Below the pieces are notes generated by a model, which ran no database searches, was not told the origin of the DNA, and saw only the letters and a list, made by a program, of their open reading frames with translations. Made by a program: the position numbers and the translations under genes. A stretch of DNA of 64,000 nucleotides from Candidozyma auris (Eukaryota; Ascomycota; Pichiomycetes; Serinales; Metschnikowiaceae), in contig NC_072815.1 in the NCBI RefSeq assembly GCF_003013715.1, positions 248,001 through 312,000 of the forward strand, in the 5' to 3' direction. Position 1 is the stretch's first letter. Every line of letters begins with the position of its first letter. Positions 1,388 to 62,363 of this stretch are shown piece after piece.

Positions 1388-2685
1388 GATGAATAGGAGC
1401 GGGAAGGGTTAACTAGAAAGGATGGATGAGCTAAAAAGGTTTCATCGCACATCTGATATGTCCTGCAGAGAGTAAGGTGATACCACCAGACCCAGACCTT
1501 TGGATTTGATCAGGTTTAGGCAGTTTTTGATGATTGAAGAAAGTAGTATTCACGTTTTGCATGGGAGGAGGTGTTTGATACAAAAATCTACTTCAAATGT
1601 TGACCAGGAAGCTCATTATAGGAGGATCTGGTGATGCATGTGGCTGGTGAGTGATGGATGCGACAATATGGTGACTTTGGAGGAGAATGAAAGCGGACAA
1701 AGTTCTTCTGTATGATTTACGTCTTGAAGACATATGAAGCATTTGCACTACGCCCATTTTTCCACGTTTATGTCCTGACAGTCCTAGACAAGCTGCTGAC
1801 AGCTTGGGGATGCTAGCCCCAGGAGCAAGTTGCATTATGGGCCGGTGTTGCCCGAAAACATTCATAGTCATACCTTTTGAAGGCTCAATATCCCAGGTTC
1901 ATCTTTAATGTGAGTGAAAGAAAGATGAGGTTTGTTACTTTTTGTCGTATAGAATTTGTTTGTGACTTTGTTCGGAATGGCTGCGAAAAAGAGTACGGAG
2001 GATACCAAACAAAAGAAGCAGCCTTGAAGAATGAAGAAAAAGACCACATAATTAGAGCCTCTTCACAAAGTATAAGAGTAGTCTCAGTAGTGATTTCCTA
2101 AGAAGTGCCTTAGGTTTCCAACGGTTCCATGTAAGTAGTATAGTTTGAATGAAAGGTGAGGATTCGCTCAGACCTAGTAGATTTCTGAGCTCGAAGTTTG
2201 ATGTTCACTAAAATGGGCAAATAATGGTATTTTAATAGTCATAAAGCTGAAAATAGGTAATTGCTTGCTTCAAGTGAACGTAATCGGTTGGATACTTACT
2301 TACCTTCCCAGATACTATGCAGTGATGGGTCTTCCTACTGTCAGCTCTGGCGGTGGTCATCTTCAATCTTCTTTTCGATGAAAGCTGCAAATACTGGCTA
2401 GTTCAAGTAACTTTCAGGGAATTCTTGACTTTTTTTTTTTCTTTCTTTTTCTTTTTCTTTTTCCTTGTATTAGCTGTAAAGGCCTTCATTCGTGGAAACT
2501 CCAGGTATGGCTGCGACATCTATCGCACAGACTCACTAACAACATCCAACTTCTTCCCATCATCACAGCCATCTCCAAACTAGCATTCCCTTCGAAGGGC
2601 TGCAAAATATCAAAGCCTGGAATACTTTTTGGTGCCTGTCACCTTTAGCATCTACCAATTTCCTCCACCTATCCAGCATCAACAA
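1388..2685. other. Divergent CKA2/SLD7 intergenic region
   Basis: A 1.3-kb region between two divergently transcribed genes. It contains one exact copy of the recurrent GGCTGCGAAA motif at 1979-1988, a partial copy near 2508 (ATGGCTGCGAC), and a long T-rich tract around 2430-2465. The short open frames here are not convincing genes. Confidence 0.6.
1979..1988 (+). promoter_or_regulatory. Recurrent intergenic motif GGCTGCGAAA, copy 1
   Basis: An exact match in the context AATGGCTGCGAAAAA, inside the divergent CKA2/SLD7 region. Its function is unknown; see the finding on this motif. Confidence 0.6.
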
Positions 2686-3492
2686 ATGGCATTTACTACG
2701 GTCACCCTTCGACATGAGCAGAAGACCGTGTCAAACATAGATATCGAGCACGAATCAAAACTACCGCCTAAGATAGGTAACCTCGAGCACGTGTCGCTCG
2801 TGGATTTTGAAAAGATTCCTTGGTTCCTCGTGTCCCATGGACCATTTAAGGTATTTTCTTCAGATGACGATACATCAGAATTCTTCAAGACGAACCTCGC
2901 AGCCGTAGCTGTCACAGAGCCTCATATAGGAATCCTTTCCAAGAGTCAAGATCCGCAAACGTATGTGGTGTTTTTTTTCCAGGACATGTCCATTCGATGT
3001 TTTTGTATCGACTTTTCTACACTAGAGCGACTTTCCACTGCATCGAGCTCGTTTGAGACGGGCACGGTCGATAATGTATTCTATTCAGCACTACGGCCAC
3101 GCTCTGACACATCTGTCTTTGATCGTGTTTTGGAGAGCAAGTCGTCCAGAAGAAACCAGTACGTTGCCCCAAAGACAACACCAAGTGACACAACAACGCA
3201 GTTATCGGTTACTCCTTTGAACGGAGATCAAATAGTGCAGGCAGTCAACAGAATGACACTTTCTGGGCTTAGACTCCGTGGACTCAATCCTTCCTCGGGC
3301 CTGACTCTCTCCAAAGATAGAGTTGTCATTAAGGAATTGTACCATATGACGCGCAAGCTGGCGCTTTTTGCATTAAGAAAGTTTAACTATGGCTTCAACG
3401 GGGCCACTGGGCAAGAAGTCCGTTTGAGTGACGTCCAAGACGTTGTAGAGCGGCTTCTACAGGCATATACCGATGTGGAGCCTCCAGCATGA
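2686..3492 (+). CDS. SLD7: Sld7-like DNA replication initiation protein
   Basis: A 268-residue protein matching yeast Sld7, the partner of Sld3 that helps load Cdc45 at origins before S phase. The N-terminal part carries VDFEKIPWFLV and a segment around TYVVFFFQDMSIRCFCIDF that align with the Sld7 N-terminal domain. The C-terminal part has SGLRLRGL, then ELYHMTRKLALFALRKF and a terminal helix DVQDVVERLL, the Sld7 C-terminal domain that binds Sld3. Length is close to the 257 residues of S. cerevisiae. The start is the first ATG; upstream in-frame codons are not ATG. It converges on MRPL10, with 47 bp between the stops. Sld7 is poorly conserved in sequence, so this call rests on the two matching end domains. 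Confidence 0.82.
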   Translation: MAFTTVTLRHEQKTVSNIDIEHESKLPPKIGNLEHVSLVDFEKIPWFLVSHGPFKVFSSDDDTSEFFKTNLAAVAVTEPHIGILSKSQDPQTYVVFFFQDMSIRCFCIDFSTLERLSTASSSFETGTVDNVFYSALRPRSDTSVFDRVLESKSSRRNQYVAPKTTPSDTTTQLSVTPLNGDQIVQAVNRMTLSGLRLRGLNPSSGLTLSKDRVVIKELYHMTRKLALFALRKFNYGFNGATGQEVRLSDVQDVVERLLQAYTDVEPPA

Positions 3493-3539
3493 CAAAATCT
3501 TCACGTTAGCATGTCTTCATTCTATGTACAGTAAATCTT

Positions 3540-4394
3540 TTAAAGACTCGAAACGTCCACAACACGGTTTTTTGAATAATCGGTGTACGTCTTCTTGGAG
3601 GCGTTCTCCAATTGCGCCGCCAACCCACTTCTCACGGCGACTTTCTTCACTCTGCTTTGTTTTTCTGCTTGTTGTGCTTTCACCTGATCCAAAAAGATCT
3701 CTGGGTGCTTCAACAAGTAACCTCTCCTTTCGGGGTCTGAGTAATACTTGATGTCTCTTTTGTGCATGGGTCTGGCCTGCAAAGGAACGTTCCCTTTTCT
3801 TAAGAGAAATCTGTCTGGGTTTAAGAACGCACGTAAGCCCAATTTCGTTCTATAAACGGATGTGTAGCTGTGACCTGTGTTTTCAACAGCATTAATTGCG
3901 CCGATTGAAGCCCTTGTCGCTTCAACGTTCAATGGCACATTGTATGTCTCCTTCCCGTTACCCAAGAGCTTCACACCATCTTTGATGCTTCCGGTAACGA
4001 GCCCGCAGTCTCTCATCACCTTATAGTCTAGTGTCTCACCCTCTTTTAGAGGGATTCTGCCTGAATTCCAGAACTCCTGGATTCTGTCCAAGTTCAAGTC
4101 GTTGTATTCTCTCTTGTGGGGTCGCTTAAAACCAATTATAGGAAATCTCTTGAAGTAGGGGGTTTGTCCACCTTCGAACCATCTGGGAACCTTACCACGG
4201 GCCTTCTGGCCCTTCTGACCTCTTCCAGACGTCTTTCCCAAGCCGGACCCTTGACCTCTACCGACTCTCTTGTAGCCCTTCACAGCACCTTCAAAAGGAG
4301 CCAAGTTTCCTAGTTGAGCAACTCCACGCAGCTGACTTAGAAGTATTCCAACTGGCCTCGCAATAGCTGCTCTAGCTGCGGTGAAAAACCCCAT
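3540..4394 (-). CDS. MRPL10: Mitochondrial large-subunit ribosomal protein uL15m
   Basis: A 284-residue homologue of bacterial L15 and yeast MrpL10, part of the mitochondrial large ribosomal subunit. Residues 1 to about 30 form an Arg- and Ala-rich presequence with no acidic residues (MGFFTAARAAIARPVG), as expected for matrix import. The L15 core follows, with the glycine/lysine-rich rRNA-binding stretch GRGQGSGLGKTSGRGQKGQK and the WFEGGQTP motif. The C-terminal extension is specific to mitochondrial homologues. The chosen start is the first true ATG of the frame; 29 further open codons lie upstream without an ATG. It converges with SLD7 at its 3' end. Confidence 0.93.
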   Translation of the reverse strand: MGFFTAARAAIARPVGILLSQLRGVAQLGNLAPFEGAVKGYKRVGRGQGSGLGKTSGRGQKGQKARGKVPRWFEGGQTPYFKRFPIIGFKRPHKREYNDLNLDRIQEFWNSGRIPLKEGETLDYKVMRDCGLVTGSIKDGVKLLGNGKETYNVPLNVEATRASIGAINAVENTGHSYTSVYRTKLGLRAFLNPDRFLLRKGNVPLQARPMHKRDIKYYSDPERRGYLLKHPEIFLDQVKAQQAEKQSRVKKVAVRSGLAAQLENASKKTYTDYSKNRVVDVSSL

Positions 4395-5442
4395 TCTTTG
4401 GTTAGGTGAAGTATGGTAGTTCTGATCTTGATGAGAAAAAAATCCAGTGAGTCGTGTGATGCACAAAAGGAACCTGGCCAAGACATATATGGTGTTAATC
4501 CCAACAGCATTGGAAATCCTTACTGTGGTGAAAATTTTCTAGACAGAGTATGATTGGGAATATTTAGAAGCCAAAAATTTACTGAAGGGCTTCTGAAGGT
4601 TTATTTACTCTAGCAAAACTAGTGTTTGGTAGTAATAGACAATATGCGCATATTTTGCTGCGAAATCAGTGGAGGACATTTCAACGATGAGTATTTCGAA
4701 CCATCCCATTATTAAGAGTCTGCTTTTCTAATATCCCCAGCTTTCTCACTTAACTTTGCTAACTTCACATCATGTGGTTAATGCTTAGAGGCTTGATAAG
4801 GAATCTAAGACTGAGAGAACACTTACGCAGCATTGGACTCGGTTCTCATTCGGTAGAGGATATATGTCGTGGAAGGTGCAACGCAAAATGACAGTTAATA
4901 CTAATTCTTTTTGATGGATAGTCACTGTGATTTTTCATTCATCAGATCAAAAACGCTACTATGTGGCGATCTCAGTTTTTGAAAAAAATGCCTTTTTTTA
5001 TTGACTTTCAGGTAGTATCTGAGTCCTGTTGCCGTTATTAGAGACTAATGATGTAAACCGTCTTTATTAGTATTCAATTAAAGTCGTGAATGGTTCTTAC
5101 GGCTAGCAAAAGACCCTTGAAAGATCATAAAAGATAATGCAAAAATTTCCCCTTTTACCTCTTATTTACCGATGAGCAGTATGTCAAGAGCTTTATTTGA
5201 ATCCCATGGATATCATTTCATAATATATTGCAAATGTCCCCAGTATATTCAACCATGCGTCATGAGAAAAGAGCGACTAGAAGCATTCGAGCTTCCTATA
5301 ATTACATCCCACCTCTCCGCCATTATTGATCATCTACTGCACCGATATATGCTTACGACGACTAAAATAAGCTCACATACTAATATTGACTTAGATTCGA
5401 CTTAGGGCTATAAAAAAGGAAAAGATGAAAAATATCAATTGT
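4395..5442. other. Intergenic region between MRPL10 and the repeat-protein gene
   Basis: About 1 kb of AT-rich sequence upstream of MRPL10 and downstream of the next gene. It contains a 9/10 copy of the recurrent motif at 4656-4665. The only ATG-initiated open frame of note (5172-5405) has no recognisable features. Confidence 0.5.
4656..4665 (+). promoter_or_regulatory. Recurrent intergenic motif, degenerate copy (TGCTGCGAAA)
   Basis: Nine of ten bases match GGCTGCGAAA. It shares the 15-mer GCTGCGAAATCAGTG with the copy upstream of RPC40 at 14640. It lies about 260 bp upstream of the MRPL10 start. Confidence 0.4.
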
Positions 5443-6288: not shown

Positions 6289-6786
6289 TGTTGCTAGTTA
6301 GCGAAAAGAAAGTGGTTGCAAATATGTGGGCCACGCCGTATCTTTATACTTTGCCAAGGCTTTGCGGGCTGCAAAGTGAGACTGCTACTCATCCGAAAAG
6401 AATAGTGCATCGATCCGAAGGTGTGCGTCTGTACTCAAGCTCAGACTAGAGGAGCCCTGAGGAAGCTTACATCGAGCGATACATGGACAGACAATGGATT
6501 CTAGTCCAGGGTATTTGTTATTGCCCTCTAAATTCATAGCTTAGTCCATCTTAAGGCGGTTGCCGAACTCTAGGCAGTTTGAAGGCAGTGTCAAATGCCG
6601 TGCTTTCTGCAGTCCGCATGAACATTCGTGCAAATCTCAACCACACTATCCAATTGCTGCAGCTTTCAAATCCCGAATGTATGTCACAATTTCACTTCAC
6701 TCACGCGAAGACGGCACATATTTTCTCTCGCTGCTGAATGGCTATCTTTATCTCTCCCATCAGTAGGTCGGCCCGGAGGCGGATCG
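6289..6786. other. Promoter region of the repeat-protein gene
   Basis: About 500 bp between the repeat-protein start and the ERG7 stop. On the minus strand a TATA-like GTATAAAG lies at about 6338-6347, some 50 bp from the ATG. No copy of the recurrent GGCTGC motif and no further gene are seen. Confidence 0.5.
6338..6347 (-). promoter_or_regulatory. TATA-like element of the repeat-protein gene
   Basis: The reverse strand reads AAAGTATAAAGA about 50 bp before the ATG at 6288. The distance is plausible for a yeast TATA box with a short leader. Confidence 0.4.
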
Positions 6787-9385: not shown

Positions 9386-9395
9386 TTTCGCAGCC
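9386..9395 (-). promoter_or_regulatory. Recurrent intergenic motif GGCTGCGAAA, copy 2
   Basis: An exact match on the minus strand (plus-strand context TTTTTTCGCAGCCATAT) in the divergent ERG7/UTP22 region. Confidence 0.6.
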
Positions 9396-9748
9396 ATATG
9401 TGTATGAGGCTATGAGCTAGAAGACGAGGAAGGGAGACTTCAAGGCGAAAATGGGAAACTCAATGACCTTGAATTAAAGAGTATACTGTGAATGTTCAAG
9501 AATCAAGGTGACGATGTGTTGAGTAAATCATGGTTTAAAAAAATCTGTCTCGACGGCACTAACCACCCAGCACTTTTTTTGCACCCATTCTCAATTTCTC
9601 GTATATAACATTTTCATCAACACAACGCCATCATTACCAAGAGCTCGGGGACGTAAAAAGAAGTTTCTAGTACATCAGAAAGTGACACCACCGTAACTTC
9701 CTACAAAATTCCCGATTTCTTCACCCAAACCATCTACTTGTACAATTG

Positions 9749-13346: not shown

Positions 13347-13504
13347 CGAGGACCCTGCCACCAGAAGTGCACATAACGTTTGCAGCCATCTTCATCCGCG
13401 AAGATGGATTAGGCCCAATGCTCGCTATCAACACTTTCCAAGGCTTACCTGGATCTAGTGAACTCACATATAATCCTCCATACTCCTCCACACTCCTTCT
13501 TCCC

Positions 13505-14278: not shown

Positions 14279-14638
14279 TTAAACTACTCGTGTCAGAAAC
14301 AGGATTGGTGGCAACTGATTTTTTTTTTTCTAACTTGATGTTTACTGGAAGGCAGCTCGTGTTTGGTTCAGTATGAAGGAGGCGGTTTCTTCAACGAATG
14401 TAAACTAGAGTCTCTTTGGGCATGTCGATCCTAACCTAGACGAGGATAGAATTTTGAACCACTCGAAGTTTCTGTGGTACTTAGAGGAGAGTTGTTGAGA
14501 AACTGCATAACTCATCCAATTGATAATGTCCGATTCCCTGCGGGTTCTCTGAAAGTCTGAGGAATGTGGACAGAATCTTATCAGAAAGCATAGTATAGCC
14601 ACACCAATTTCGTCAAACTGAGCTCCTTAGGCTGGGTT

Positions 14639-14648
14639 GGCTGCGAAA
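14639..14648 (+). promoter_or_regulatory. Recurrent intergenic motif GGCTGCGAAA, copy 3
   Basis: An exact match in the context GTTGGCTGCGAAATCAGTG, about 270 bp upstream of the RPC40 ATG. Confidence 0.6.
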
Positions 14649-16629: not shown

Positions 16630-17289
16630 GGTGGAAGCAGTATACGGTTTTGGTGATTTGATCAGGACGTGTCAGAAAAACGAGCTTTGGTCGTGCGAGG
16701 AACAGGACAGGACAAGTAAGAGACTATGGAGATTTAATAAGAGAAAACAATAAATTGGAATTGATAAGTTACTTTGCTTGATTTCCTTTACTGGGGGCCT
16801 CTCATGTTGCTTTTATTATGTATTTGTGTTCTGATATGTTGGGACCTTCACTTGTATGAAGCGAGGCTACGAGTAGAAGTGGTGGGTCCACCTGAAATCC
16901 GGCATCGATTTCTTGTAAAGTGGTTGATGGTCATAAACTTGATAATCTAAGCAGCTCTATCAAATTCAATCTTTATTCTACGCTGATGCTAGAAGTATTA
17001 TCAGGTCTGTTTGTATTATGTTTAGACATCACTAAGGTGCGCCTGATTTGGAGGACTTTTCGCAGCCATTAGGCCAGAACAACAAAAAAGTATGGAATGC
17101 TTCCAATAGGTAGCAAAATTAACGTGAAATCAACATACCTTAAAAATAGCCTTTTAGACAAACCGCTGTCAACCTCTTTGCAGCGAATGTGCCTTTTGGT
17201 TGTTTCAACCTCGTAGTTATCCTACGTCATAGCGTTCAGGTGCTACGCTCCTACCTCAGTTCATCAATGCATTATATTTACAAGCTAAT
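16630..17289. other. Intergenic region ERP3-MRPS35
   Basis: About 660 bp upstream of ERP3 and downstream of MRPS35. It holds one exact recurrent motif at 17058-17067, in the plus-strand context ACTTTTCGCAGCCATTAG. No other feature is seen. Confidence 0.5.
17058..17067 (-). promoter_or_regulatory. Recurrent intergenic motif GGCTGCGAAA, copy 4
   Basis: An exact minus-strand match about 430 bp upstream of the ERP3 start. Confidence 0.6.
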
Positions 17290-18388
17290 TTATACAGTGT
17301 AGACCATGCGACCAAGTTTATCGAAGCCCACGGCCCTGTCTCTTTTCTTGTCTCTTCTAGAAGCACCGTACCTGTAACCAACTTCGCCCGCGGTGGCCTT
17401 GGTGAATCTGAACTCGGTATCGTCGCCTTGTTTCTGAACACCGACAACAACCTCGTTTTGTTTCACTTTGGGCATGTCACTCACCTCCTTGAATTCAGAC
17501 AAGCTGTTAAGCGTTTCTTGAGCAGGCTCAAGCCCGAAGATCTTACCAGCGTCCACGGGACCAAATGGTTCCGACTCAGAGATGGTCAAGAACCTCTGGT
17601 GCAATGTCTTGGCTGGGGTGGGAATTTCCGTCAAGTTATCCTTGTCTCTGGGTGGGTAGAATAAGGGGAACATTCTGTTCATAACCTTCGAAAATTTGTC
17701 AAGGTCCTCATTGATTTTGTTCTGGATGTTAGTATAAATGTTGCAAATTAGTATTTGTTTGTCAGGAGCAAATGTGTAACCATATGGAGGTCTTAAAGAC
17801 TAATCGAATATAACAAAGCTAATCTCATCATCAAACAAAAAATAAGGATTTAAAAAATCATTGTGTACATACCTCGCTTCTCCATTGTCTCTCAATGTGT
17901 TGTAGCTTGACAAGCGCCTCTACACGAGGAAGACGAATGCCATATTTATGTGCTACTTCCTGGACATGAACGCCCTTCTCCACCACTTCGGAGAAAATTT
18001 TCTGCTTCATGTCCTCCAGAATTACCTGGGCCGTCTGGGTATGCCTGTTGTGTGGGAAAGGAAACTTGGAGAGGTCTCTCGAAGGATTCCTCTGGAACAC
18101 TTCAACGCCTGGCGTGACTCTAGGGAAGTTGTTTTCATCGATGTACAGGGGCTGGTGGTTCTGAGGAGGATAGCAGTACTTGTTTGTATAGTATTCACCT
18201 CTGATGTTCTTGGGACCAAGAAACACTTTAAGTTGCCTCTTCAAGGGTCCATCGTGGGATTTCGGGTCTGGTTTAGGGAGAAACCCTTCGGGCACACGGA
18301 AGTAGTCTGCCTTTCTCTTACGTCTGAATCCACGGGCCGCTTGGACGGAGCGAGCGCCGCTAGGACGAATTGTCAGGGCAGAGAACAT
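17290..18388 (-). CDS. MRPS35: Mitochondrial small-subunit ribosomal protein mS45 (Mrps35/Bot1), spliced
   Basis: A 315-residue protein after splicing, homologous to yeast Mrps35 and S. pombe Bot1, in the mitochondrial small ribosomal subunit. Exon 1 (18388-17873) encodes 172 residues. It has a basic presequence-like start and the Bot1 signature: RRKRKADYFRVPEGFLP, GPLKRQLKVFLGPKNI, EYYTNKYCYPPQ and EVVEKGVHVQEVAHKYGIR. Exon 2 (17721-17290) encodes 143 residues starting NKINEDLDKFSKV, with MFPLFYPP and a C-terminal YRYGASRRDKK. Read without splicing, both halves would be truncated. The joined frame is continuous and close to the yeast length (345). It is divergent from CDC7. Confidence 0.88.
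17722..17872 (-). other. Intron of MRPS35 (151 nt, phase 0)
   Basis: The 5' splice site is GTATGT (17872-17867). The branch site TACTAAC is at 17734-17728 and the 3' splice site ATCCAG ends at 17722, only 6 nt after the branch heptamer. The intron separates codons exactly (QWRSE then NKINE). Confidence 0.88.
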
Positions 18389-18665
18389 TGGAGGAGAGAG
18401 GGAACTTTTTCACTAGAGATTTTTTTTTTTTTCCAAGTGAGTAGCAGAAGATTGCGACATCGCGACATTGTCGCATTCTCTTGGAGTGCCAGCGCTGAAA
18501 TCATATACCTTTAATATTCATATTTTTAAAAGGTAGGTGATTTTTCGTTATCTAGCGTGTTAGCTTATAAGAAGAATTTGAGAGGCAATTGGAGGTTTGC
18601 TTTTTTTTTTTTTAATTTTTTCTTTTGAATTTGATGACACCATACAAGATGCCTGTCATTGAGGA

Positions 18666-18675
18666 TTTCGCAGCC
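18666..18675 (-). promoter_or_regulatory. Recurrent intergenic motif GGCTGCGAAA, copy 5
   Basis: An exact minus-strand match (plus context GATTTCGCAGCCATTTT) in the divergent MRPS35/CDC7 region. Confidence 0.6.
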
Positions 18676-18978
18676 ATTTTCGTAGGTGAGGCCCAGTGAG
18701 ACATCAAGGACGGATATAGAACGGATATGAAAGATTTATTAAGATGCTTCGTTTATTCTCTTCTCTCTGCCACAATACTCTTTGGCAGAAATATGGCTCT
18801 CTTGTCAGGTACCCTTTGTGAGATTGCCCGTGACATCCAATGTAGAAGTGTTTCGAAGCACACACAAAAACGACTGTCCAATACACTTACTTGATCTGAA
18901 GGTATACGCAGAAAACTTTAAGCGTTCTATATATAAATGTAGAGACAACTGGTGAAGCCGATAACTGCCAAACACTCA

Positions 18979-22181: not shown

Positions 22182-22607
22182 GGACAACCAAAAAAAAATA
22201 AATATGACAGGCTGCTTACAGCCCAGATGAAGAAGTGGCAAGTGCACGTGCAGTGGACGAGCCTTCAGAGTAAGACAGTCTAGGTAGACAAGTAGTATGT
22301 GACCAGGATAAAGGGTAGACTTGTCCTGTTATTGTAAAAGCGTCTTTACGCAATCTCCTGTGTATAAGCCCAGAAAGAAACCAAGCCCTTCCCTGCGATG
22401 AGAGCTGTACATACCATGGGAAAGTCAAAGATAAGATCGGTCTGAAGAAAAGATAAAACAAATAGAGGACCAGGAACAGGCTCTATATTTAGCTTGCTCG
22501 AGAAATATGTTGGAAAAGTCAGTGAGTTGCAGTCATGTGGGGCGGATTCGGTGCTCTATTTAAAGTTGGCGGGTGCCCCAGACCCTGCACGACTGGTACA
22601 TAGTTTT

Positions 22608-22617
22608 GGCTGCGAAA
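22608..22617 (+). promoter_or_regulatory. Recurrent intergenic motif GGCTGCGAAA, copy 6
   Basis: An exact match in the context GTTTTGGCTGCGAAAAGAGG, within the long region between the unknown minus-strand gene and RPF2. Confidence 0.6.
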
Positions 22618-24598: not shown

Positions 24599-24644
24599 TC
24601 ATCAGCTATTCTTTGGTAGGCTCTGTTTTGGTAGAGTGTCTGGT

Positions 24645-24654
24645 GGCTGCAAAA
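24645..24654 (+). promoter_or_regulatory. Recurrent intergenic motif, variant GGCTGCAAAA, copy 7
   Basis: The A-variant of the motif, about 450 bp upstream of NUP133 and 50 bp after the RPF2 stop. Confidence 0.45.
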
Positions 24655-30834: not shown

Positions 30835-30873
30835 CTTTGTTGATGATAGTTCACGTAAAGTGAAAATAAAAGG

Positions 30874-30879
30874 ACGCGT
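30874..30879. promoter_or_regulatory. MCB element (ACGCGT) of CDC21
   Basis: A perfect ACGCGT palindrome 40 bp before the CDC21 ATG. MBF (Mbp1/Swi6) binds this element, and CDC21 is a classical MBF target in S. cerevisiae, so G1/S induction is expected. Confidence 0.65.
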
Positions 30880-31074
30880 AGTATACACTTTTAGGACATA
30901 TGTGTGCAGGAAATCGGAGAAGAACCTTCAAAGGATGGAGTTGGGTGTTCCCAGCCTACACAAATTTCACAAATTTTCCTTGTGCTACGAATCTTACAAT
31001 TGCATCATGATTCTCTGTTTATTGATTTTACAAGAATTCCAGCTATTCGAAAAGTTTAGTGCAGCAATGAAGCT

Positions 31075-31272
31075 TTACTTCTTCTCTCCGAAGACAGCGT
31101 CGGAAGCCTGCTGAGTGAAAGACTTGTCACCGGATCTGGAGTTGTCGCCAACAAAGTTGTCGATGGTGTCAGTCACCTTGTCCTTAGCCAACTCCAAAGT
31201 AGACTTCTGGGAGTCGGGCTTGACAGCGGAGGAGACTTTGTCGGAGATATCTTTGCGGCCGGCGTCAGACAT
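31075..31272 (-). CDS. HSP12: Hsp12-family small stress protein
   Basis: A 65-residue protein of the Hsp12/Hsp9 family: intrinsically disordered, membrane-associating and induced by heat, osmotic and stationary-phase stress. The N-terminus MSDAGRKDISDKVSSAVKPD and the following SQKS are diagnostic. KSFTQQASDAVFG near the C-terminus matches Candida homologues. It is much shorter than the 109 residues of S. cerevisiae, lacking the repeated middle. The promoter has a TATAAATA box and an AGGGG stress element. Upstream lies an 18-bp minisatellite. Confidence 0.9.
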   Translation of the reverse strand: MSDAGRKDISDKVSSAVKPDSQKSTLELAKDKVTDTIDNFVGDNSRSGDKSFTQQASDAVFGEKK

Positions 31273-31328
31273 AATTAGTTAATTGAGTGTGTGGTAAAGA
31301 ATGAATTAACACGAAGAAAATAGCTTCC

Positions 31329-31336
31329 TATTTATA
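31329..31336 (-). promoter_or_regulatory. TATA box of HSP12
   Basis: The minus strand reads TATAAATA 57-64 bp upstream of the HSP12 ATG, as expected for a strongly inducible gene. Confidence 0.5.
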
Positions 31337-31426
31337 ATCGCCCAGGTGGTGCTTGAGTTAGCCACTATAGCAATCCATTTAGCCTGCCTTGCGCAATACA
31401 GGAGGCGAATTCCTACCTCAGCCGGG

Positions 31427-31431
31427 AGGGG
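31427..31431 (+). promoter_or_regulatory. Stress response element (AGGGG) of HSP12
   Basis: AGGGG within GGGAGGGGTGACCCCC, about 155 bp upstream of HSP12. STREs bound by Msn2/4-type factors drive HSP12 in yeast; function here is inferred. Confidence 0.4.
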
Positions 31432-31702
31432 TGACCCCCATGCACCGAGCAATTAGTAGCAAGAACTTGATTGCTACGGTAGAACTCGCGTCATAGACGG
31501 TCGCCTGGACCAATTGGATGTGGACTAGCATGGAATTGTTCTTCCCCAGCCCATGCTTAGCTAATTTGGAACAGTGGGTTGCGGGTGCGCATGATTTTGC
31601 AACCTGCGTTTACTGGTAGCAACACAGTAATTCACGGAAATCGGTAAGCCAGGAAAAGAAAACTTTTTCCACAAATAAGAAATCTGTTTGTAGCAGTCAA
31701 TA

Positions 31703-31774
31703 GTAGAAGCAGTGTAAACTGTAGAGGCAGTGCCAATTGTAGAAGCAGTGTCAATTGTAGAGGCAGTGTCAATT
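31703..31774. repeat. 18-bp tandem repeat, four copies
   Basis: Four direct units at 31703-31720, 31721-31738, 31739-31756 and 31757-31774. The unit is GTAGARGCAGTGYCAATT, alternating A/G at the sixth position. The first unit ends TGTAAACT instead. The length is a multiple of three, so open frames persist on the minus strand (TASTID-type hexapeptides). Confidence 0.9.
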
Positions 31775-31901
31775 GATAGACGCCTTTGCAGCGAAAATAG
31801 CAGGGCACATGAAAGCCAGCCGTTTGTAGTAAGACCAATGCCCAGATACATGCACAAAAGAACATCAACACCAGGTGTTGACTAACAAATAAAGAAGTTG
31901 C

Positions 31902-32975: not shown

Positions 32976-32985
32976 TTTTGCAGCC
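32976..32985 (-). promoter_or_regulatory. Recurrent intergenic motif, variant GGCTGCAAAA, copy 8
   Basis: Minus-strand match (plus context CCTTTTGCAGCCATCAC), the first of two copies in this divergent region. Confidence 0.5.
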
Positions 32986-33278
32986 ATCACGAAGGTCACA
33001 GTTGAAGGCTACTTATGTAATTCCTGTAACAATAGTTCACAGCTTCGAATGAATAAAAATTTGAGTGGATTGCCCCTCTTATTCTCGAATCTATGTTTAC
33101 CTCTTCTTATGGAATTATCAGTAGATAAAGCATCGGTGCACGCACTGGTGATTTCAAGAACTCATGATCAGAAGTATTAGCCAGATTCACTTGCTCATCT
33201 TACCAGTACTTCTCAGTACCAAGATTCAAGGTTATGTCCATAGGAGGCAATCTCATACCACTACTTGCCCGCGGAAGT

Positions 33279-33288
33279 GTTTGCAGCC
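33279..33288 (-). promoter_or_regulatory. Recurrent intergenic motif, variant GGCTGCAAAC, copy 9
   Basis: Minus-strand match (plus context GTGTTTGCAGCCATTTC), the second copy in the same region, same orientation. Confidence 0.45.
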
Positions 33289-33899
33289 ATTTCATATAGT
33301 CACCGCAAACAAGATGGAAAACCCACCTTTAAAGAGCCGAGAAAGCTTAGGTAATCAGAAAATCAGCTTCACTAATTTGGATTCTTATGATTTAAATGTC
33401 CTGAAAACAGTAGTACTTTAACTTCCATACTGTTCTTACGAGAGAGCGATCCACAGTTTTATTCTCCACACATAAATTTTTCTCCTCTCATTCAATGGCA
33501 AAACCAATGCAAAGAACTTTATAAATACATCAAGTCCCTGTCAACTCAAAAACGCCTGTCTCAATTGCTGATCAGATTACTACCTGATCGAAATCTGTCG
33601 TACTTTCACCTGTCTCACACCTACTGTCACGATACCTCAATCATCAGTCAGCCACCAGACTCCCCACACAGCTCCATAGCTACAAAACATCACAAAAAAA
33701 TAGCCACATTTTTCAACAGCTCCATCTAAATCCACTGTTATCCATTCTTCAGTCTTGCGTTCTGAGACAGGTATCCTCCACTATCGCTTGTCCTGCAGAG
33801 GCTCCATGTACTGCTATTGTGTTTCCTGAATCAGGTCTGCTATCTTTAAAGCTCTCCTACTAAAGCCCACAACTCATAGTGGCAGCCACACTTGAAAGA

Positions 33900-38304: not shown

Positions 38305-38604
38305 GCCGGACAGTATTATTTGGGAATATAGCAATGAAAGTTATGAAGTACATGCTACATGCCTGTGGGTGCAAAATCGTCGTGGTGACCGCGTAATTCA
38401 AAGCTCTGCTGAGTCATAATTTTGGTAAACTGATATCTCGTCTTCGCTTATAACACTTGATCTGTCTACAACACCTTAATCACTAGTCGCACCTAGTCCT
38501 ACCTTCAGCATATATATACCTTATATATAAGGCATTCGCAGCCTTCTATTGTTAGCATCTCACATCAGACAACCCACATCAAAACAACTTGTATCACCTT
38601 CCTC
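38305..38604. other. Upstream region of BNA4
   Basis: 300 bp with a weak GGTGCAAAATCG similarity near 38365, a TA-rich run (ATATATATACCTTATATATAA, about 38510-38530) and the GGCTGCGAAT variant of the recurrent motif at 38534-38543. Confidence 0.45.
38534..38543 (-). promoter_or_regulatory. Recurrent intergenic motif, variant GGCTGCGAAT, copy 10
   Basis: Minus-strand 9/10 match, only about 60-70 bp before the long-form BNA4 ATG. This is unusually close compared with other copies. Confidence 0.4.
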
Positions 38605-41768: not shown

Positions 41769-42191
41769 TTGCGGTCCGAAAAGACTGTTTTCGGTGCTGT
41801 ATAATTTGACGACGATTTGTATATAATGCATGCCCTAGGCGATCAAGGAATGGAAGTTGTATATCCTCTTATCTTTCTTCCTTCTGTAGGGCCTCAGATT
41901 TCGCAGCCATTGATCTGGAGAGGTGAGAATGACCAACAATCCTGAGCCACACTCACCCCGTGGAGATAACTTTCGTGTGAATATTGATCACTTTTTCCAT
42001 AAGCAAGAAAGACCCTCTATTTTTTCTTGCACTTCCTTGTTTAGTTTCTTCTCTTTCTCCTATCAGATACTTTGACTGATATTCTCCTGTCCTGCACACG
42101 CCATCGAGTGAATCGCAGTTTTGTAGCCAAACAAAATCAATGTGTCAACTACTTAACACATTTAATCTAAAAGACCATTCAATCCCTGGAG
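41769..42191. other. Upstream region of GLO3
   Basis: About 420 bp with an exact recurrent motif at 41899-41908. No other feature is seen. Confidence 0.5.
41899..41908 (-). promoter_or_regulatory. Recurrent intergenic motif GGCTGCGAAA, copy 11
   Basis: An exact minus-strand match (plus context AGATTTCGCAGCCATTGA), about 290 bp before GLO3. Confidence 0.6.
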
Positions 42192-43979: not shown

Positions 43980-43989
43980 GTTCGCAGCC
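43980..43989 (-). promoter_or_regulatory. Recurrent intergenic motif, variant GGCTGCGAAC, copy 12
   Basis: Minus-strand 9/10 match (plus context GTGTTCGCAGCCATTAA), about 360 bp after the GLO3 stop. Confidence 0.5.
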
Positions 43990-44590
43990 ATTAACGTAGA
44001 CCGAGTGCAAGTTCACTAAAAACTACAAATCAAGAAAGCTTAAGCCAATCGACAAATCAGCATATCCAAGCCAACCTCTGGCCGACAAGTAACAATGCTC
44101 GTATCCTCTGGCGACTCGTATTTGCCACTTTGTATTGCGGCAGCGATTGCAATATTACTGGTGAGCAAACCGAAATTGAAATTGACGCAGAGAGGAGAAC
44201 AATGAAAAGAAAAAGGAAGCAAAGGAGAGGATGTAAAGGAAAAACAACGAAAGAAAGGAACAAAAGAAAAGAGAGAGATAAGGTACAAGGTCGAAGGGAG
44301 GGCTTAGGGTTACAGGGGTGGACAAAGTGGAGACGCCTGGCGACAGTATGGAGGGAACACACAAGCGGACGCAGGGCAGACTGTGGATTCACAAATGGTG
44401 TTTTGCAGAAGGTGCTTCGCAGATTGAGGAACTTTGCCGTCGGCGGGCGTAGAAATCTCTCGAATTTTTTTAATTTTGTTTTTTTGGCGCGAGCGTCGTT
44501 TTTGTGAAACCTACCGGTGGACTCAAACAACAACTGGAATTACCCAGCCAACCACGCGACGCGAGATCCAAGGAGCCCACCAGCGAGAGC

Positions 44591-44699: not shown

Positions 44700-44709
44700 C
44701 TTTGCAGCC
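44700..44709 (-). promoter_or_regulatory. Recurrent intergenic motif, variant GGCTGCAAAG, copy 13
   Basis: A weaker variant in the GC-rich part of the sugar-porter upstream region. A related TTTCGGAGCCATTTT (one base off) follows at 44839-44853. Confidence 0.35.
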
Positions 44710-44737
44710 AGGAGGAGGATCCGGAATTCCTCTGTGG

Positions 44738-45879: not shown

Positions 45880-45889
45880 GGCTGCAAAT
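45880..45889 (+). promoter_or_regulatory. Recurrent motif variant GGCTGCAAAT at the sugar-porter start codon
   Basis: The variant overlaps the ATG (GGCTGCAAATG). It may be a chance match or a translation-start context effect rather than a functional copy. Confidence 0.25.
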
Positions 45890-47780: not shown

Positions 47781-48499
47781 GTAATGATTTAATTTTATAC
47801 GAGAGTACGATCTAGAGTGTAGGCTCAACCACGATGATAGTATCTGAAAAGCCACGTTCAAGCTATCTCGGTAGCAGAGGTCCAATCACACCGTCCACAT
47901 ATTAAAGCTTTTCAGAAAGTAACCTGAAGTTACGACTCCACTATCATCGCTTGTAGTCATGACCAGATCCGATTTCCTTCGACTGCTGTTCACTGATCGA
48001 TTACCTGAGCTGACTGCACCACATATAATTGACTCAGAATGGCTGCAAAATCTCGTTCCTCAGCCAATTCCCAGATATCATTGCCCGCATCCAAGAATCC
48101 CGTTGAAAGAGTCCAACCTATTAAAGGGCCGTATGCCTCAGCATGATCAAATGAAGCATAGTTCTTTATTAAAAAGAATCATACATCATTTCACATAACA
48201 ATCTTCTCCATCAACTACATAGTCCTGTCGGTACACCTATCACCATTGCCGAGTTAAATGGTGTCTCCAGTCCTTCAAATACAATAGTTACTTAAACAAT
48301 TGCCCAATTGACGACTTCTCCAGCGGTTAACTCCGGATCCATTGACTCTGGCGGAGAAAGGTACCAAAGTACTGTACTCTTTCCAGAGGGGAACTCTCGG
48401 CGCGGAAAATGGACCCGGTTTTGTCTCTTATCAACAGTAGCAGTTATATAATGACCTCCAGCCTCACAGCCTTAGACCTTCCAACTGCAATATTTTAAC
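47781..48499. other. Intergenic sugar porter-PMP22-like
   Basis: About 720 bp with the GGCTGCAAAA variant of the recurrent motif at 48041-48050. A 79-codon open frame (47959-48198) spans the motif and is not convincing. Confidence 0.5.
48041..48050 (+). promoter_or_regulatory. Recurrent intergenic motif, variant GGCTGCAAAA, copy 14
   Basis: Context CAGAATGGCTGCAAAATCT, about 460 bp upstream of the PMP22-like gene. Confidence 0.5.
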
Positions 48500-49408: not shown

Positions 49409-49418
49409 TTTCGCAGCC
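49409..49418 (-). promoter_or_regulatory. Recurrent intergenic motif GGCTGCGAAA, copy 15
   Basis: An exact minus-strand match (plus context ATTTTTCGCAGCCATTTT), about 280 bp before ETR1. Confidence 0.6.
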
Positions 49419-49624
49419 ATTTTGCAATTGGTGGGAAGCATCCTTGACACCCAAATCTTTGGAAAGTCCGAAATCTTTTGATTTTCAAAAGAAAGAAACA
49501 CAAATGAAGTTGGATTTAGATCACAATAAAATCAGAAACATCGTCAACCTAAATTCTAGTACTCTATAATTAGTATCCCCAGCTTCTCATTACTAAGCTT
49601 CACCCACTCTTGCTCGGTCCTACA

Positions 49625-51612: not shown

Positions 51613-51633
51613 ACCAAACACTCTCAGCCTGTG

Positions 51634-55184: not shown

Positions 55185-55741
55185 GATGGTGTTGTTAGGT
55201 GGAGGCTTCTTACATTGATCGCATATATCATCATGGAGGCGTGTGCAAACCAGGATTACCACAAAGTGGGCCCGGGAAGCGGCGAAGTCAAAGAGAAAAT
55301 ACGACTTTGCGAGAAAAATCAGGCGTTTGACAGGAGAAATGAGGACGATCACATAATCTCGACCTTTGGTCTACTTAATTGGCTTTTTTATGATGTTTGA
55401 GTGCTGATGTCGATAATAGAGAATCACCAGATCAAGAAGCATGCACAAGGAAGTTAAAAATTTTTGCATTTTTGAAAACTTCTCAATATTTTAGGGTGAA
55501 TAAATCTCGATATTAATGTTTCATTTAAGTCTGAACCAGCAATCTCCTTATTCACGCCTCGAATTTATTCTTTTAGTTATCAAGGGATGTTGATCAACTC
55601 GGATATTCAGAGTAATTACAGAGATAGGGGCTTTGGCTGCTGAATAATGGGAGACAAAGTGTTGAGATATTTACACATTGGTATTTTATGAAGGCATATA
55701 TCAACAATAATTGGTATTGTATGTTCTAGTGGTGGCCGAAT

Positions 55742-55751
55742 GGCTGCGAAA
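55742..55751 (+). promoter_or_regulatory. Recurrent intergenic motif GGCTGCGAAA, copy 16
   Basis: An exact match in the context CGAATGGCTGCGAAAACGAG, in the RHO3/UTP5 divergent region, about 290 bp from UTP5. Confidence 0.6.
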
Positions 55752-55927
55752 ACGAGGTTTAGTGACGTATTCTCGTTCGTTGCGATGTCTCTTTTCCGTA
55801 AAAAAATGAATCCCTCTAAGTTCATATTTTGATCAAAAACTCAACAGCTATAGCTCGGACAGCACACTAACGAAAATTCCAATTCAATCGAAGTGCAAGT
55901 ATGAAGCACAACCAGACTGACACTATA

Positions 55928-55933
55928 CACGTG
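55928..55933. promoter_or_regulatory. E-box CACGTG upstream of UTP5
   Basis: CACGTG in ATACACGTGACTC, 108-113 bp before the UTP5 ATG. It is a candidate Cbf1-type site, paralleling UTP22. Confidence 0.4.
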
Positions 55934-56040
55934 ACTCTTATCACGCGATCAACTTTCGTCTGCTCTTCTCCATCTCGCGTAACTGAAAAACCAGAAACCT
56001 TCATCATCAGTCATCAAATACCTTAAGATTGCATAAAGGG

Positions 56041-57930: not shown

Positions 57931-58055
57931 ACATAATTCTGTGCATATATATACATATATAGAGGTTTTAAAGACCACTGTACACTAGGAACCTTCTATT
58001 CATCACATTGCACTCTACGCGCACTGTTCACGCCTCATACAAATACTCAGCTTAA

Positions 58056-59630
58056 ATGGGTATGTCTCAATTGAACTGGAGATTCGTCTATTTGCTTACA
58101 ATCGGTCTTCGATTTGTTCTAGCTTTGGCGAACTCCTATATACATCCAGATGAACATTTCCAAAGCTTAGAGGTGGCCTCTCTGCTATGGCTAGGGTACC
58201 ACACCAACATACCTTGGGAGTTCACCTCTTCTTCACCAGCGAGAAGCTATGTGCCATTGGCAGTCCTATACTACCCCATTTTGAAGCTTTCGCAATATAT
58301 GGGTCTCGAATTGCCCCTACAGATATGGTACCTATCCAGACTAGTTCTAATGGTGATGTCATGGATGATCACGGATTGGTGTTTGTTTAGGATGCTTCCT
58401 ACTAAACAGGAGAGAATCAAGGCCATATACTTCACGCTGACATCATACGTTACGCTAGTGTACCAATCACACTGCTTTTCGAACTCTATTGAGACAATGT
58501 TGGTGATGGGCGCTGTTTATATCATCAACGAGCTTCGCTTCCTTTTTTCGCAGAATGATTCACAGTATGATAAGAGGGACTTGAGGAGGTTGGCTACGAT
58601 TTTTGGCGCGTTGGTTGCATTTGGTATATTCAACAGAATCACCTTCGCTGCGTTCTTGATCTTTCCATCTGTGTTTCTCCTTCAAAGTTTTTGGAAGTGG
58701 AAGTCACTTTTGTTCTTTGCAGTATTGAGCTTCGCTGTGGTATCTGGTGGGTGCGTGCTTCTCGACTCCGTGCTATTTGGGTCGTTGTCGTTGGCAGATA
58801 TTGTAAGAGATCCATGGAAAGCTTCTCATTACGTCATCACTCCATTGAACAGTTTACTCTACAATAGCAGCATTGAGAATTTGGGTAAGCATGGGCTCCA
58901 CCCCAGATATAACCACGTCTTGATCAATTTGCCTCAACTTTTTGGTCCTGGTCTCTTCCTTTTATTCTGCCGTTTTCGAAACAGATACTGGAGGACAACA
59001 CCTTTCATAAGTGCACTCAGTGGTATTGTGTTTTTGTCAGCCGTGCCCCATCAAGAGCTACGATTCCTCCTTCCCGTGGTACCTCTTTTGTGCTCCTGTT
59101 TTGACTTAAGCCTCGGATATAAGGATGAGGCGCCTAAAAAGTCTTGGTTATTGTCGCCTTTGATGGCTCTTTGGTTTGTATTCAATATTATAATGGGTGT
59201 GCTTATGGGCATCTTCCATCAAGGCGGCGTTGTTCCTGCTCTTGACCAATTGCACGGGCTACAACTTCAAGATACCGCACAAGTCTGGTGGAGAACGTAT
59301 TCCCCGCCAACATGGATGTTGGCAGACAGAGAGAATAATTGTCAGTTCATCACTTTAAATGCCGACAACCATAAGTTTTCATTTGACGAGAGCAAGAAGA
59401 GCTACGTGGTTGACGCCATGGGATCTGATTTTGGAATCGTTGACGAGCTAATCAAGGAATTACGTAAGAAGGTCGTCTTGGTGACGCCGATTGCGTCTTT
59501 CAAATCGCATTTTGATGACAGCCGGTTCCGCAAAATATGGAGTACTCCGTTCCACTTGGATTTGGATCACCTTGACTGGTCTGATCCTAAAACTTTGCAA
59601 CCTGGATTAGCAATCTATGAGCTAGTCTAG
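58056..59630 (+). CDS. SMP3: GPI mannosyltransferase Smp3 (fourth mannose)
   Basis: A 524-residue multi-pass ER mannosyltransferase (GT22 family) that adds the fourth, side-branch mannose to GPI precursors, essential in yeasts. The GT22 HPDEHFQ motif is at residues 30-36, right after the first membrane helix. Further matches are NIPWEFTSSSPARSYVPL, SYVTLVYQSHCFSNSIETML, HGLHPRYNHVLINLPQLFGP, PHQELRFLLPVVPLL, VWWRTYSPPTWML and the C-terminal FHLDLDHLDWSD ... LQPGLAIYEL. These extend along the whole yeast protein (516). It follows UTP5 by 125 bp and converges on RPT3, 31 bp apart. Confidence 0.95.
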   Translation: MGMSQLNWRFVYLLTIGLRFVLALANSYIHPDEHFQSLEVASLLWLGYHTNIPWEFTSSSPARSYVPLAVLYYPILKLSQYMGLELPLQIWYLSRLVLMVMSWMITDWCLFRMLPTKQERIKAIYFTLTSYVTLVYQSHCFSNSIETMLVMGAVYIINELRFLFSQNDSQYDKRDLRRLATIFGALVAFGIFNRITFAAFLIFPSVFLLQSFWKWKSLLFFAVLSFAVVSGGCVLLDSVLFGSLSLADIVRDPWKASHYVITPLNSLLYNSSIENLGKHGLHPRYNHVLINLPQLFGPGLFLLFCRFRNRYWRTTPFISALSGIVFLSAVPHQELRFLLPVVPLLCSCFDLSLGYKDEAPKKSWLLSPLMALWFVFNIIMGVLMGIFHQGGVVPALDQLHGLQLQDTAQVWWRTYSPPTWMLADRENNCQFITLNADNHKFSFDESKKSYVVDAMGSDFGIVDELIKELRKKVVLVTPIASFKSHFDDSRFRKIWSTPFHLDLDHLDWSDPKTLQPGLAIYELV

Positions 59631-59661
59631 TGTTTGATGTAACATTATCAAGATAACTCAA

Positions 59662-60906
59662 TCACTTGTAGAAGTCAAACTTGTCATGCTCAGTTCCGCT
59701 CTTCACCTGAGCAGTGTAGGCCTCCTCCAAGTCATTTTGCAAAATCATGTATCTGTTCTTTCTTACCGCACGTAAACCAGCTTCTTGCATGATAGCGGCA
59801 ATCACGGCACCAGATAATGGATCATTCCGTACAATCAAAGAGTCCAAATCAACTTCTGGAGCCAAGGCCATCTTTGATGCAATAGTGGAGAAAATCAAAC
59901 GCCTCTCTCTTCTATCTTTCAATGAAGGGAATTCAATTTTTCTGTCCAATCTTCCCGGTCTCAACAATGCAGGATCTAAGGTGTCTGCTCTATTGGTTGC
60001 CATGATGACTTTGACGTTGGAAGTTTGATCGAACCCATCCATCTGATTTAACAATTCCAACAAAATTCTTTGCACCTCACGATCAGCACCAGTTTGGGCG
60101 TCGAATCTTTTTGTGGCAATGGCGTCAATTTCATCAATGAAAATGATTGCAGGTGAGTTTTCCCTAGCTAGACGAAAAACGTCTCTCACCATTCTTGGAC
60201 CTTCACCTAAGTACTTTTGAACAAACTCTGAACCGTTGATACGGATGAATGATGCAGTAGTGGAGTTGGCAACGGCTTTGACCAACATGGTCTTACCTGT
60301 ACCTGGAGGGCCGTAAAGCAACACACCTCTGGGCGGATCGATACCAATCTGCGAGTACAAGTCACCTTGCGTCAATGGCAACTCAACAGCTTCCCTAATT
60401 TCCTGCTTCTGCATGTCCAAACCACCAACATCAGCATACGTCACGTCTGGTTTCTGGTTGTCACCGACAATCGCAATAGAGGAGTCGGCTTCAGGAGGCA
60501 AAATGTCCACAAGAGCATTGGAGTGACGGTGTAATGCAACAGAAGAAGAGGGCTTTAATAGTTCCCTGTCCAAAGTGGAAAGAATCCTTACCACGTAATT
60601 TGATCCGGTGGTACTAGAAACTATACCGGTGTTCTCGTCAATAGGTTCCAAAAACTGGCCAATGACCAAAGGAACCGATCTGATTCTCTTCACTTCTTCT
60701 TGAGCACGTACTAGTTCTCTCTTCAAGTGGCGCTGCTCGTCTTTGATGTAGTCCTCCTGTAACAACAATAAGTCCAACTCTTTCTCCAACTTCTTTAGTT
60801 TCAAGTACACGTCCAGGTTATCATCTGTGAAATGAGACCAGTCAAGCTTTGATTTGGGAAGACTGGTTGTGGGAACAACGGGTTGTTCTATGCCTAATTC
60901 CTCCAT
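59662..60906 (-). CDS. RPT3: 26S proteasome regulatory ATPase Rpt3
   Basis: A 414-residue AAA ATPase of the 19S base. An N-terminal coiled coil ([20 protein letters not shown]) leads to an OB domain and the AAA module. This has Walker A GPPGTGKT, Walker [11 protein letters not shown], the second region of homology ([20 protein letters not shown]) and the Rpt3-specific C-terminus FDFYK, an HbYX-like tail that docks into the 20S ring. All conserved leucines checked use non-CTG codons. No perfect PACE (GGTGGCAAA) site is seen upstream; TTGTGGCAAG near 60978 is a weak relative. Confidence 0.96.
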
Positions 60907-62363
60907 GGCGTTGAAAGTGGTATGTAATCAATTGTTGAACGAGGTAATGTACTGTGGTAACCAGGCGAGATTAGTTACTTGTGGCAAGATAGTGGTATGT
61001 ACACGACCTATTTAAATTATGGGCAATTGAAATCGTCAAACCAACGTCGAAAACCGTAAAATAGAGGGGTATTAAATTTATCGACTAAAAGCTATTTTGA
61101 TAATTGCGGCAGCCGTTGATGTGGATTGCCTCATAGTGAGTATAGCGAGCAATGCCTATAATACGCTGTATTGGCTGCGAAAAGGGCTCAAATACAAGTG
61201 GGACCCTTATGATGAGACGACCCTAAAGACAAAAAATTTCCATTATTGGGCCATGAAAGCATGTATATGTCAAGATGAAATGCTTGGGAAATATAGCGGA
61301 TTGCCATATTGTGTACCTGTGACAAGCAGCCATCGAACCAAGCACTAAAAGCGTTGAATAATTCGGTTTTGTGATTCTCGGTAGAGCAATTATTAAGAAC
61401 TAGTCTCTATTTGCCACTGTGTTACGCATTAGAAACTCATTATAATGCCTGCTTGCACCCCACTGGAAGGTTTAAGCTTCCTGACAATTGTCTTGGATGA
61501 GGTCACTTACATGGGGATTTGAAGTCTTCATATTTGTTACAGAGACATAATCCATAACTCAACAATTCTGATTTGACACCGGGATGAGCTCATATCATTC
61601 GTCAATTTCACTCAATCTCAATTCTCTCTCGCAAAAGTTTGTTAGCTTCTTCATTGAGGAAATGAAGCGAAGTGAAGTCCTTCACTGTTGTACTTCCAAG
61701 TTATCGCTTCCCATCATCCGCCTCTGTTAAGAATGCATATCTTTGCATAAGGAAATTTTCTCCTCTGCGAAGCGTTGATAACCTCAGAAAACGGAAAATC
61801 CCCTCTTCTCAATGATTTGCACCAACTGTCGCTTATGCATGGCATCTAGTTAAGACAGCGTTGCGAGTGCGTTGACAGCTGTGTTCAGTGCAGCCAGAAG
61901 CTACACAGAACAAGGTTTGAGGACAAGAAGTTGTCAAATCCATACAAAGTATATAAAATGACATGACGCAATTGTTGTGGAATTCTCTAATTATCTTAAT
62001 TCATAATAACCCTCAATCCTTATCAAACCCTTCAATTACCCCATGCAACTTCATGCACAGTGGCCAGAGCTTATATGATGGCACAACTGAACTCTAGATA
62101 AAAGTTCAATTGTTTGTTCGAGAAACCACTAATCAAGGAAAACATCGGAAACCGCTGCACGTTCTATCGACTGGTCCCTTGTGCGTCCTGTCCCACTCTC
62201 GGTTCCCCTTTAGGCATTTTCTCCGACTCATCCTATCTGTATCTGCCCTCGCGCTTCGGCTCAGGCGGCTCAATCCAGCTGCAACCCTCCACATTTTTCT
62301 TGACCAACTGCTACCAGTACTATTTATTTCGAACTCTTCTGGCTCAGTCATTTCTCGTTGGAC
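60907..62363. other. Divergent RPT3/FMP27 intergenic region
   Basis: About 1.46 kb with an exact recurrent motif at 61173-61182. Open frames at 61097-61348 and 62110-62571 lack an ATG or overlap FMP27 in another frame. No other feature is recognised. Confidence 0.5.
61173..61182 (+). promoter_or_regulatory. Recurrent intergenic motif GGCTGCGAAA, copy 17
   Basis: An exact match in the context TATTGGCTGCGAAAAGGG, about 270 bp upstream of the RPT3 start. Confidence 0.6.

Follow-up and report, generated by a model that had tools for sequence, protein, structure and literature searches.

A 14-bp motif that recurs in the promoter-bearing gaps between genes of Candidozyma auris is the putative binding site of an abundant protein. 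The motif was noticed in a stretch of 64,000 nucleotides, C4:248001-312000 (the window), and was followed through the genome of 12,249,773 bases in seven contigs. Its consensus is AATGGCTGCRAAAW (A A T G G C T G C R A A A W), with an almost invariant core, GGCTGCRAA. Computed here were the motif itself, how sharply defined and how abundant it is, its restriction to gaps that bear promoters, and the range of unrelated genes next to it. Based on these properties, we think it about 70% probable that the motif is the site of one abundant sequence-specific protein that acts at promoters genome-wide and resembles general regulatory factors (GRFs) such as Reb1, Abf1, and Rap1.

The motif was far more abundant than expected, both in the window and in the genome. 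The window has 10 exact copies of GGCTGCGAAA, compared to 0.10 expected from 100 dinucleotide shuffles. All ten were at the coordinates reported in an initial annotation of the window and, as it had claimed, between genes (outside of ATG open reading frames (ORFs) of at least 120 amino acids (aa)). The more permissive pattern GGCTGCRAAM had 17 matches (0.58 expected), including those at 2598 (+) and 13378 (-) that were absent from the earlier list. Genome-wide, we used the same pattern read backwards as a control. There were 1,454 copies of TGGCTGCRAAA (6 reversed), balanced between the strands (742 on + and 712 on -), and 2,468 copies of the core GGCTGCRAA (85 reversed). The corresponding numbers were 1,038 and 19 for GGCTGCGAAA, and 398 and 1 for AATGGCTGCGAAA.

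The motif was strongly enriched in DNA between genes. We compared coding and intergenic DNA in a sample of 314 kb (C4:248001-512000 and C1:1000001-1050000; 94 kb intergenic and 220 kb coding), to which the counts below refer unless the window or genome is named. Gene models were intron-less ORFs from ATG to stop of at least 100 aa, with the longest taken first and a minimum of approximately 100, 120, or 200 aa depending on the analysis. The core GGCTGCRAA was found 64 times in intergenic and 9 times in coding DNA, a density approximately 17-fold higher between genes, and GGCTGCGAAA was found 38 and 2 times, respectively. The 9- and 10-mers with the highest z-scores for intergenic enrichment were words derived from the motif and poly(A) words. 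The decisive evidence for intergenic enrichment is a permutation control for base composition: across the 3,780 possible orderings of the letters of GGCTGCGAA, the motif had 42 intergenic copies, the runner-up had 5, and the mean was 0.36. In coding DNA, GGCTGCGAA had 3 copies and the permutation mean was 1.1. The initial annotation had put forward a composition-corrected comparison of coding and intergenic density as a check on its claim, and the density ratio and the permutation control both bear it out. An excess in promoter-bearing intergenic DNA over both coding DNA and shuffles is what is expected of a GRF site.

For the table of sites and the analyses of window gaps and of gaps of at least 200 bp, we substituted 17858-18388 (-), an ORF with a Pfam match, for one spurious ORF in the window, 17948-18514 (+). 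The spurious ORF was kept in the 314-kb word counts, alignment, gap-class counts, and the co-occurrence, codon-bias, and permutation analyses.

The shape of the motif is that of one long, asymmetric, and stringently read putative protein site, unlike that of a decaying repeat. We aligned the 64 intergenic copies of GGCTGCRAA, which gave the consensus above. Information was limited to approximately 14 bp, and the flanks were flat, with little or no signal to approximately 25 bp on each side. The R position was G in 42 copies and A in 22. If the copies were functionless leftovers of a mobile element or dispersed repeat, the high copy number would be explained, but they have nothing in common outside of the 14 bp, and these flat flanks rule out a repeat or transposon remnant. 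There was also no surplus of decayed copies: TGGCTGCGAAA was found 35 times between genes and the form with A for G 8 times, compared to 19 in total for the remaining 32 single-letter variants (43 for the two accepted forms). In addition, the motif is scarce in coding DNA and absent from gaps between convergent genes (below), and the 15-mer AAATGGCTGCGAAAA occurs 117 times in the genome (0 reversed), with the 100 matches listed spread over six contigs. We consider an origin from such remnants extremely improbable.

The motif was found only in those gaps that contain a promoter. None of the 37 convergent gaps had a site. Because most convergent gaps are short, only those of at least 200 bp are a fair test, and there were 0 sites in these 8 gaps where 4.0 were expected (P = 0.019). 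Site densities in divergent and tandem gaps were 0.73 and 0.69 per kb, respectively. Non-convergent gaps of at least 200 bp had the core in 45 of 80 cases, and 13 of the 22 window gaps of at least 250 bp had an exact TGGCTGCRAAA. As with GRF sites, there were one or two copies in those promoter gaps that had any.

These counts change some of what had been claimed about placement. The statement in the initial annotation that there is about one copy per long promoter region was too strong, given the fractions above. It had also named the DAL1 gap as the only long exception. That gap does lack the motif, but the closest match in 30835-31901 (1,067 bp) carries two mismatches, and the best that 4395-5442 (1,048 bp) contains is a one-mismatch copy. 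The claim that short and convergent gaps are devoid of the motif holds for convergent gaps, at all lengths and at 200 bp or more, but not for short gaps: 2 of 12 tandem gaps of less than 200 bp had a copy, and the copy at 13378 sits in a gap of 71 bp.

Sites in tandem gaps tended to be a few hundred base pairs upstream of the start codon. In tandem gaps of at least 200 bp, 36% of sites were expected 200-500 bp upstream of the ATG and 17 of 25 were found there, a proportion matched in 0 of 2,000 random placements; the 200-500 bp interval was picked post hoc from the histogram of positions.

The number and position of the sites favor a GRF over replication origins. The initial annotation had suggested an abundant factor, either a GRF or one acting at origins through the origin recognition complex (ORC) or an autonomously replicating sequence (ARS). 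The general proposal is supported, and the GRF half of it is preferred because the sites are many, are absent from convergent gaps, and tend to be 200-500 bp ahead of start codons. An ORC-binding or ARS consensus sequence (ACS) element that marks origins would also be asymmetric, long, high in information, intergenic, and on both strands, and some yeasts use ACS elements that contain G+C. However, there are 1,454 strict and 2,468 core copies, and the median spacing in the C4 stretch was 3.3 kb, compared to tens of kb for yeast origins; ACS-like words can outnumber active origins. An origin element would not need the lean toward start codons (in the post hoc interval). The number and spacing found here are not origin-like, and a preference for promoters over convergent gaps (0 of 37, and 0 of 8 at 200 bp or more) is not expected of origins. 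Taken together, how many sites there are, how closely they are spaced, where they sit at promoters, and their absence between convergent genes make an origin element quite unlikely.

The orientation of the motif relative to genes was at most weakly biased. In tandem gaps, the motif was more often opposite to the gene (20 vs 8, p = 0.036), as it might be if it acted as an RNA-level element in 5' untranslated regions or as a transcription-termination roadblock. This bias fell to 17 vs 8 (p = 0.11) after one gene model was corrected and gaps of less than 200 bp were dropped. The genome-wide strand balance (742 vs 712), the similar densities in divergent and tandem gaps, and the lack of sites in convergent gaps, where terminators meet, all argue against an element of this kind, which we regard as very unlikely. 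No structural RNA or tRNA was found in the window.

The motif is upstream of many functionally unrelated genes. For ORFs of approximately 200 aa or longer, 62 of 121 had an upstream site, with a site in a divergent gap credited to both genes. Pfam classes were assigned to 20 proteins of the window, the majority of them adjoining sites, and the neighbors included RNA polymerase, nucleoporin, proteasome, p24, cyclase, ribosome-biogenesis, and kinase genes. Presence at many promoters of unrelated genes is a property of GRF sites.

We considered whether the sites might instead belong to a broad but condition-dependent activator, such as the factor of a growth or housekeeping regulon, rather than to a general factor that organizes chromatin. 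Median codon-usage bias was slightly stronger in genes with a site (0.116) than in genes whose promoters of at least 250 bp lack one (0.083, p = 0.052), and the G+C content of third codon positions was slightly higher in the former (p = 0.046). Growth genes were frequent among the neighbors in the window. The core also resembles the proteasome-associated control element (PACE), the site of Rpn4, GGTGGCAAA: 7 of 9 letters agree with GGCTGCRAA, the third and fourth letters differ, and the gene for a proteasomal ATPase has a copy. However, the two differences in codon usage were borderline and came from a set of three comparisons, the third being gene length (p = 0.12). Upstream regions were also longer for genes that have a site (median of 1,024 bp vs 718 bp). 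PACE itself was not enriched (1 intergenic and 1 coding copy), and the motif does not fit its hallmark, GGTGGCAAA at proteasome genes. Rather than being limited to proteasome genes, the motif precedes about half of the genes in the sample, including those for a Ulp-type protease, an ArfGAP, and an Mpv17-type protein. A regulon factor is unlikely because of this breadth, and the weak tie to codon bias (p = 0.052) leaves some room for it. A separate word, GAAGGCAAAA, which we take to be the Candida proteasome motif, was found 69 times genome-wide (32 reversed).

The motif resembles the sites of known yeast GRFs in behavior and differs from them in sequence. Like the sites of Reb1, Abf1, and Rap1, it is long and asymmetric, is used in either orientation, and is found at promoters of unrelated genes and only in gaps that bear promoters. 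The initial annotation had not recognized it as a site for Reb1, Abf1, Rap1, Tbf1, or Cbf1, or as PAC or PACE, in agreement with their consensus words. The Reb1 consensus is TTACCCG, and the motif lacks this core, which is also that of Nsi1. TTACCCG was found 6 times in intergenic and 10 times in coding DNA, and the longer GTTACCCG 2 and 0 times. Genome-wide, the Reb1-type word GTTACCCGR had 78 copies compared to 212 reversed, although the reversed word could itself be in excess. The Reb1-type word was thus rarer than its control although a gene presumably encoding a Reb1/Nsi1-like protein (L056) is present. Abf1- and Rap1-type words were not enriched between genes in the sample.

Some other known words were enriched between genes. 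The density ratio (intergenic to coding) was 1.84 for CACGTG and 2.0 for the Tbf1 word ARCCCTAA. These mild enrichments of Cbf1 and Tbf1 words indicate that other factors are also at work. The longer Cbf1-type word TCACGTGA had 14 intergenic strand-hits (a palindrome, at 7 places) and none in coding DNA, and RTCACGTGAC had 148 strand-hits genome-wide vs 23 reversed, with full palindromes counted twice. The Cbf1 site is like the motif in its intergenic enrichment, but it is approximately 10-fold rarer than TGGCTGCRAAA and unrelated in sequence. It appears as a second, rarer promoter element. We rejected both partnership and mutual exclusion between the motif and such words: there was no excess of A-tracts, TATA-like words, or CACGTG inside the same gaps, and Cbf1-type sites were present in 8 of the 45 promoter gaps that contain the motif, compared to 3 of the 33 that do not.

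The animal YY1/REX1-type site, GCAGCCATT, is also similar, in that its reverse complement, TTTYGCAGCCATT, has the same nine letters as the motif. We did not recognize a YY1-like array among the 22 C2H2 loci that we read (below), and we judge this likeness to be a coincidence unless a YY1-like protein is found.

How such a site might work can be outlined by analogy with GRFs. One protein would bind the asymmetric site, whichever way it faces, a few hundred base pairs ahead of the start codon, and the bound stretch would be kept free of nucleosomes by the protein itself or by a remodeler that it recruits. This would allow the pre-initiation complex to assemble at adjacent genes that are functionally unrelated. 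The factor would be the dominant one among the GRFs in the lineage of C. auris. Protein binding, the action of a single protein, and the opening of chromatin are what we infer from the distribution of the sites. We see an even chance that this Candida-related lineage replaced the classical GRFs with another putative protein that has its 14-bp site at about half of all promoters, and that Reb1-type sites fell to or below background.

Several results weigh against a GRF. The motif is not universal, in that the core is absent from 35 of 80 promoter gaps of at least 200 bp. When positions in tandem gaps were expressed as a fraction of gap length, they were indistinguishable from uniform (Kolmogorov-Smirnov p = 0.42). 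GRF sites are often described as partners of A-tracts, but the sites found here showed no association with poly(dA:dT) or TATA-like words in the gaps that they share. Finally, no candidate protein emerged from surveys of C2H2 genes (22 loci read) and Myb genes (8 loci read). The 22 C2H2 loci came from 78 finger matches and did not include most of the genes with a single finger, nor the long array at C2:597361-598245; the Myb survey had 21 matches, of which 8 loci were followed. These two families were the extent of the survey, with zinc-cluster, bZIP, APSES, and other families outside of it. We assume from their appearance that the longest C2H2 arrays among the 22 loci are related to Azf1 and Zap1 and others to Crz1 and Swi5/Ace2, and that the Myb proteins are Reb1/Nsi1-, Tbf1-, Bas1-, and Dot6-like. 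Proteins like Reb1, Tbf1, Bas1, and Dot6 have sites other than the motif. Two C2H2 genes, C6:242419-242577 and C6:388210-388368, had identical domain scores and open frames of the same length (296 aa), which suggests a recent duplication.

A GRF with its own specificity would fit what has been proposed for related yeasts. Tsankov et al. (2010, PMC2897762) hypothesized that other GRFs with different binding specificity are used in Debaryomyces hansenii, Candida albicans, and Yarrowia lipolytica, since sites for Abf1 and Reb1 failed to explain nucleosome organization in yeasts of the Candida clade. They also propose the Cbf1 site CACGTG as a GRF site in yeasts that predate the whole-genome duplication, stress Cbf1- and Rsc3/30-like sites in D. 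hansenii, and name CACGAC as a GRF site specific to C. albicans. The D. hansenii sites differ from the motif. CACGAC, like the motif, is a candidate GRF site of the Candida lineage, but unlike the motif it was not enriched in the C. auris sample (33 intergenic and 65 coding, density ratio of 1.18). The motif, which precedes about half of the genes in the sample, is a concrete and testable candidate for the site of a GRF of the kind proposed by Tsankov et al. Judging from titles and the beginnings of abstracts, we found no description of it among the papers listed by literature searches; the depletion table of 7-mers (Table S6) in PMC2897762 may hold a trace of it in a related species. A free-MNase control strain of C. 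auris is described in PMC7565893. Neither GGCTGC nor GCAGCC is in the main text of PMC12607694. If the GRF interpretation is correct, then the motif is an unrecognized basic part of promoter architecture in an important pathogen (Candida auris) and a confounder for any motif search on its promoters.

Table 1. Copies of the motif in the window, relative to TGGCTGCRAAA. Gene names given as presumed are our assumptions.
Position	Strand	Form	Context
1978..1988	+	exact TGGCTGCRAAA, full AATGGCTGCGAAA	divergent gap, protein kinase (presumably CK2-like) / Sld7
2597..2607	+	one mismatch, GGGCTGCAAAA	88 bp before Sld7 ORF
9386..9396	-	exact	divergent gap, squalene cyclase-type gene (presumably ERG7) / UTP22
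13378..13387	-	variant GGCTGCAAAC	71-bp gap, UTP22 / DUF1746 gene
14638..14648	+	exact	277 bp before RNA polymerase Rpb3/RpoA-type gene
17058..17068	-	exact	428 bp before EMP24/p24-family gene
18666..18676	-	exact	divergent gap, Bot1p-family gene / protein kinase (presumably CDC7-like)
22607..22617	+	exact	divergent gap, ORF without Pfam match / Brix-domain gene
24644..24654	+	exact	451 bp before Nup133-like gene
32976..32986	-	exact	divergent gap, thioesterase / Ulp1-family protease
33279..33289	-	one mismatch, TGGCTGCAAAC	divergent gap, thioesterase / Ulp1-family protease
38534..38544	-	two mismatches, AGGCTGCGAAT, core GGCTGCGAA intact	71 bp before next ORF
41899..41909	-	exact	293 bp before ArfGAP gene
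43980..43990	-	one mismatch, TGGCTGCGAAC	
44700..44710	-	one mismatch, TGGCTGCAAAG	
48040..48050	+	exact	459 bp before Mpv17/PMP22-family gene
49409..49419	-	exact	286 bp before ADH-type gene (presumably ETR1-like)
55741..55751	+	exact	299 bp before Utp12-family gene, divergent from Ras-family gene
61172..61182	+	exact	266 bp before proteasomal ATPase gene (on - strand)

A copy of GGCTGCAAA at window 45880-45888 overlaps the first base (45888) of the ATG of a sugar-transporter ORF. At C1:2811783-2811806, two copies of AATGGCTGCGAAA are in direct repeat with starts 11 bp apart, the sole such close pair among 100 of the 398 matches listed.

The protein of the UTP22 gene of the window, which adjoins two of the sites in Table 1, matched four relatives at 81-85%; among the best 120 of 568 matches, the best-scoring named ones were from Metschnikowia (66%) and then Debaryomyces (62%). 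Scanning the genome_contigs and viral_contigs collections with UTP22 turned up no relative. The gene has 5 CTG codons among 1,173.

Other words were also concentrated between genes. AAGTCGAAT/ATTCGACTT had 9 intergenic and 0 coding copies (for example, at window 5395), with no obvious common flanks, and is possibly a further regulatory site. GCGCGCC had 11 intergenic copies and 1 coding copy, and CGCGC had 66 and 40, respectively (density ratio of 3.82); these words are possibly an RSC-type site.

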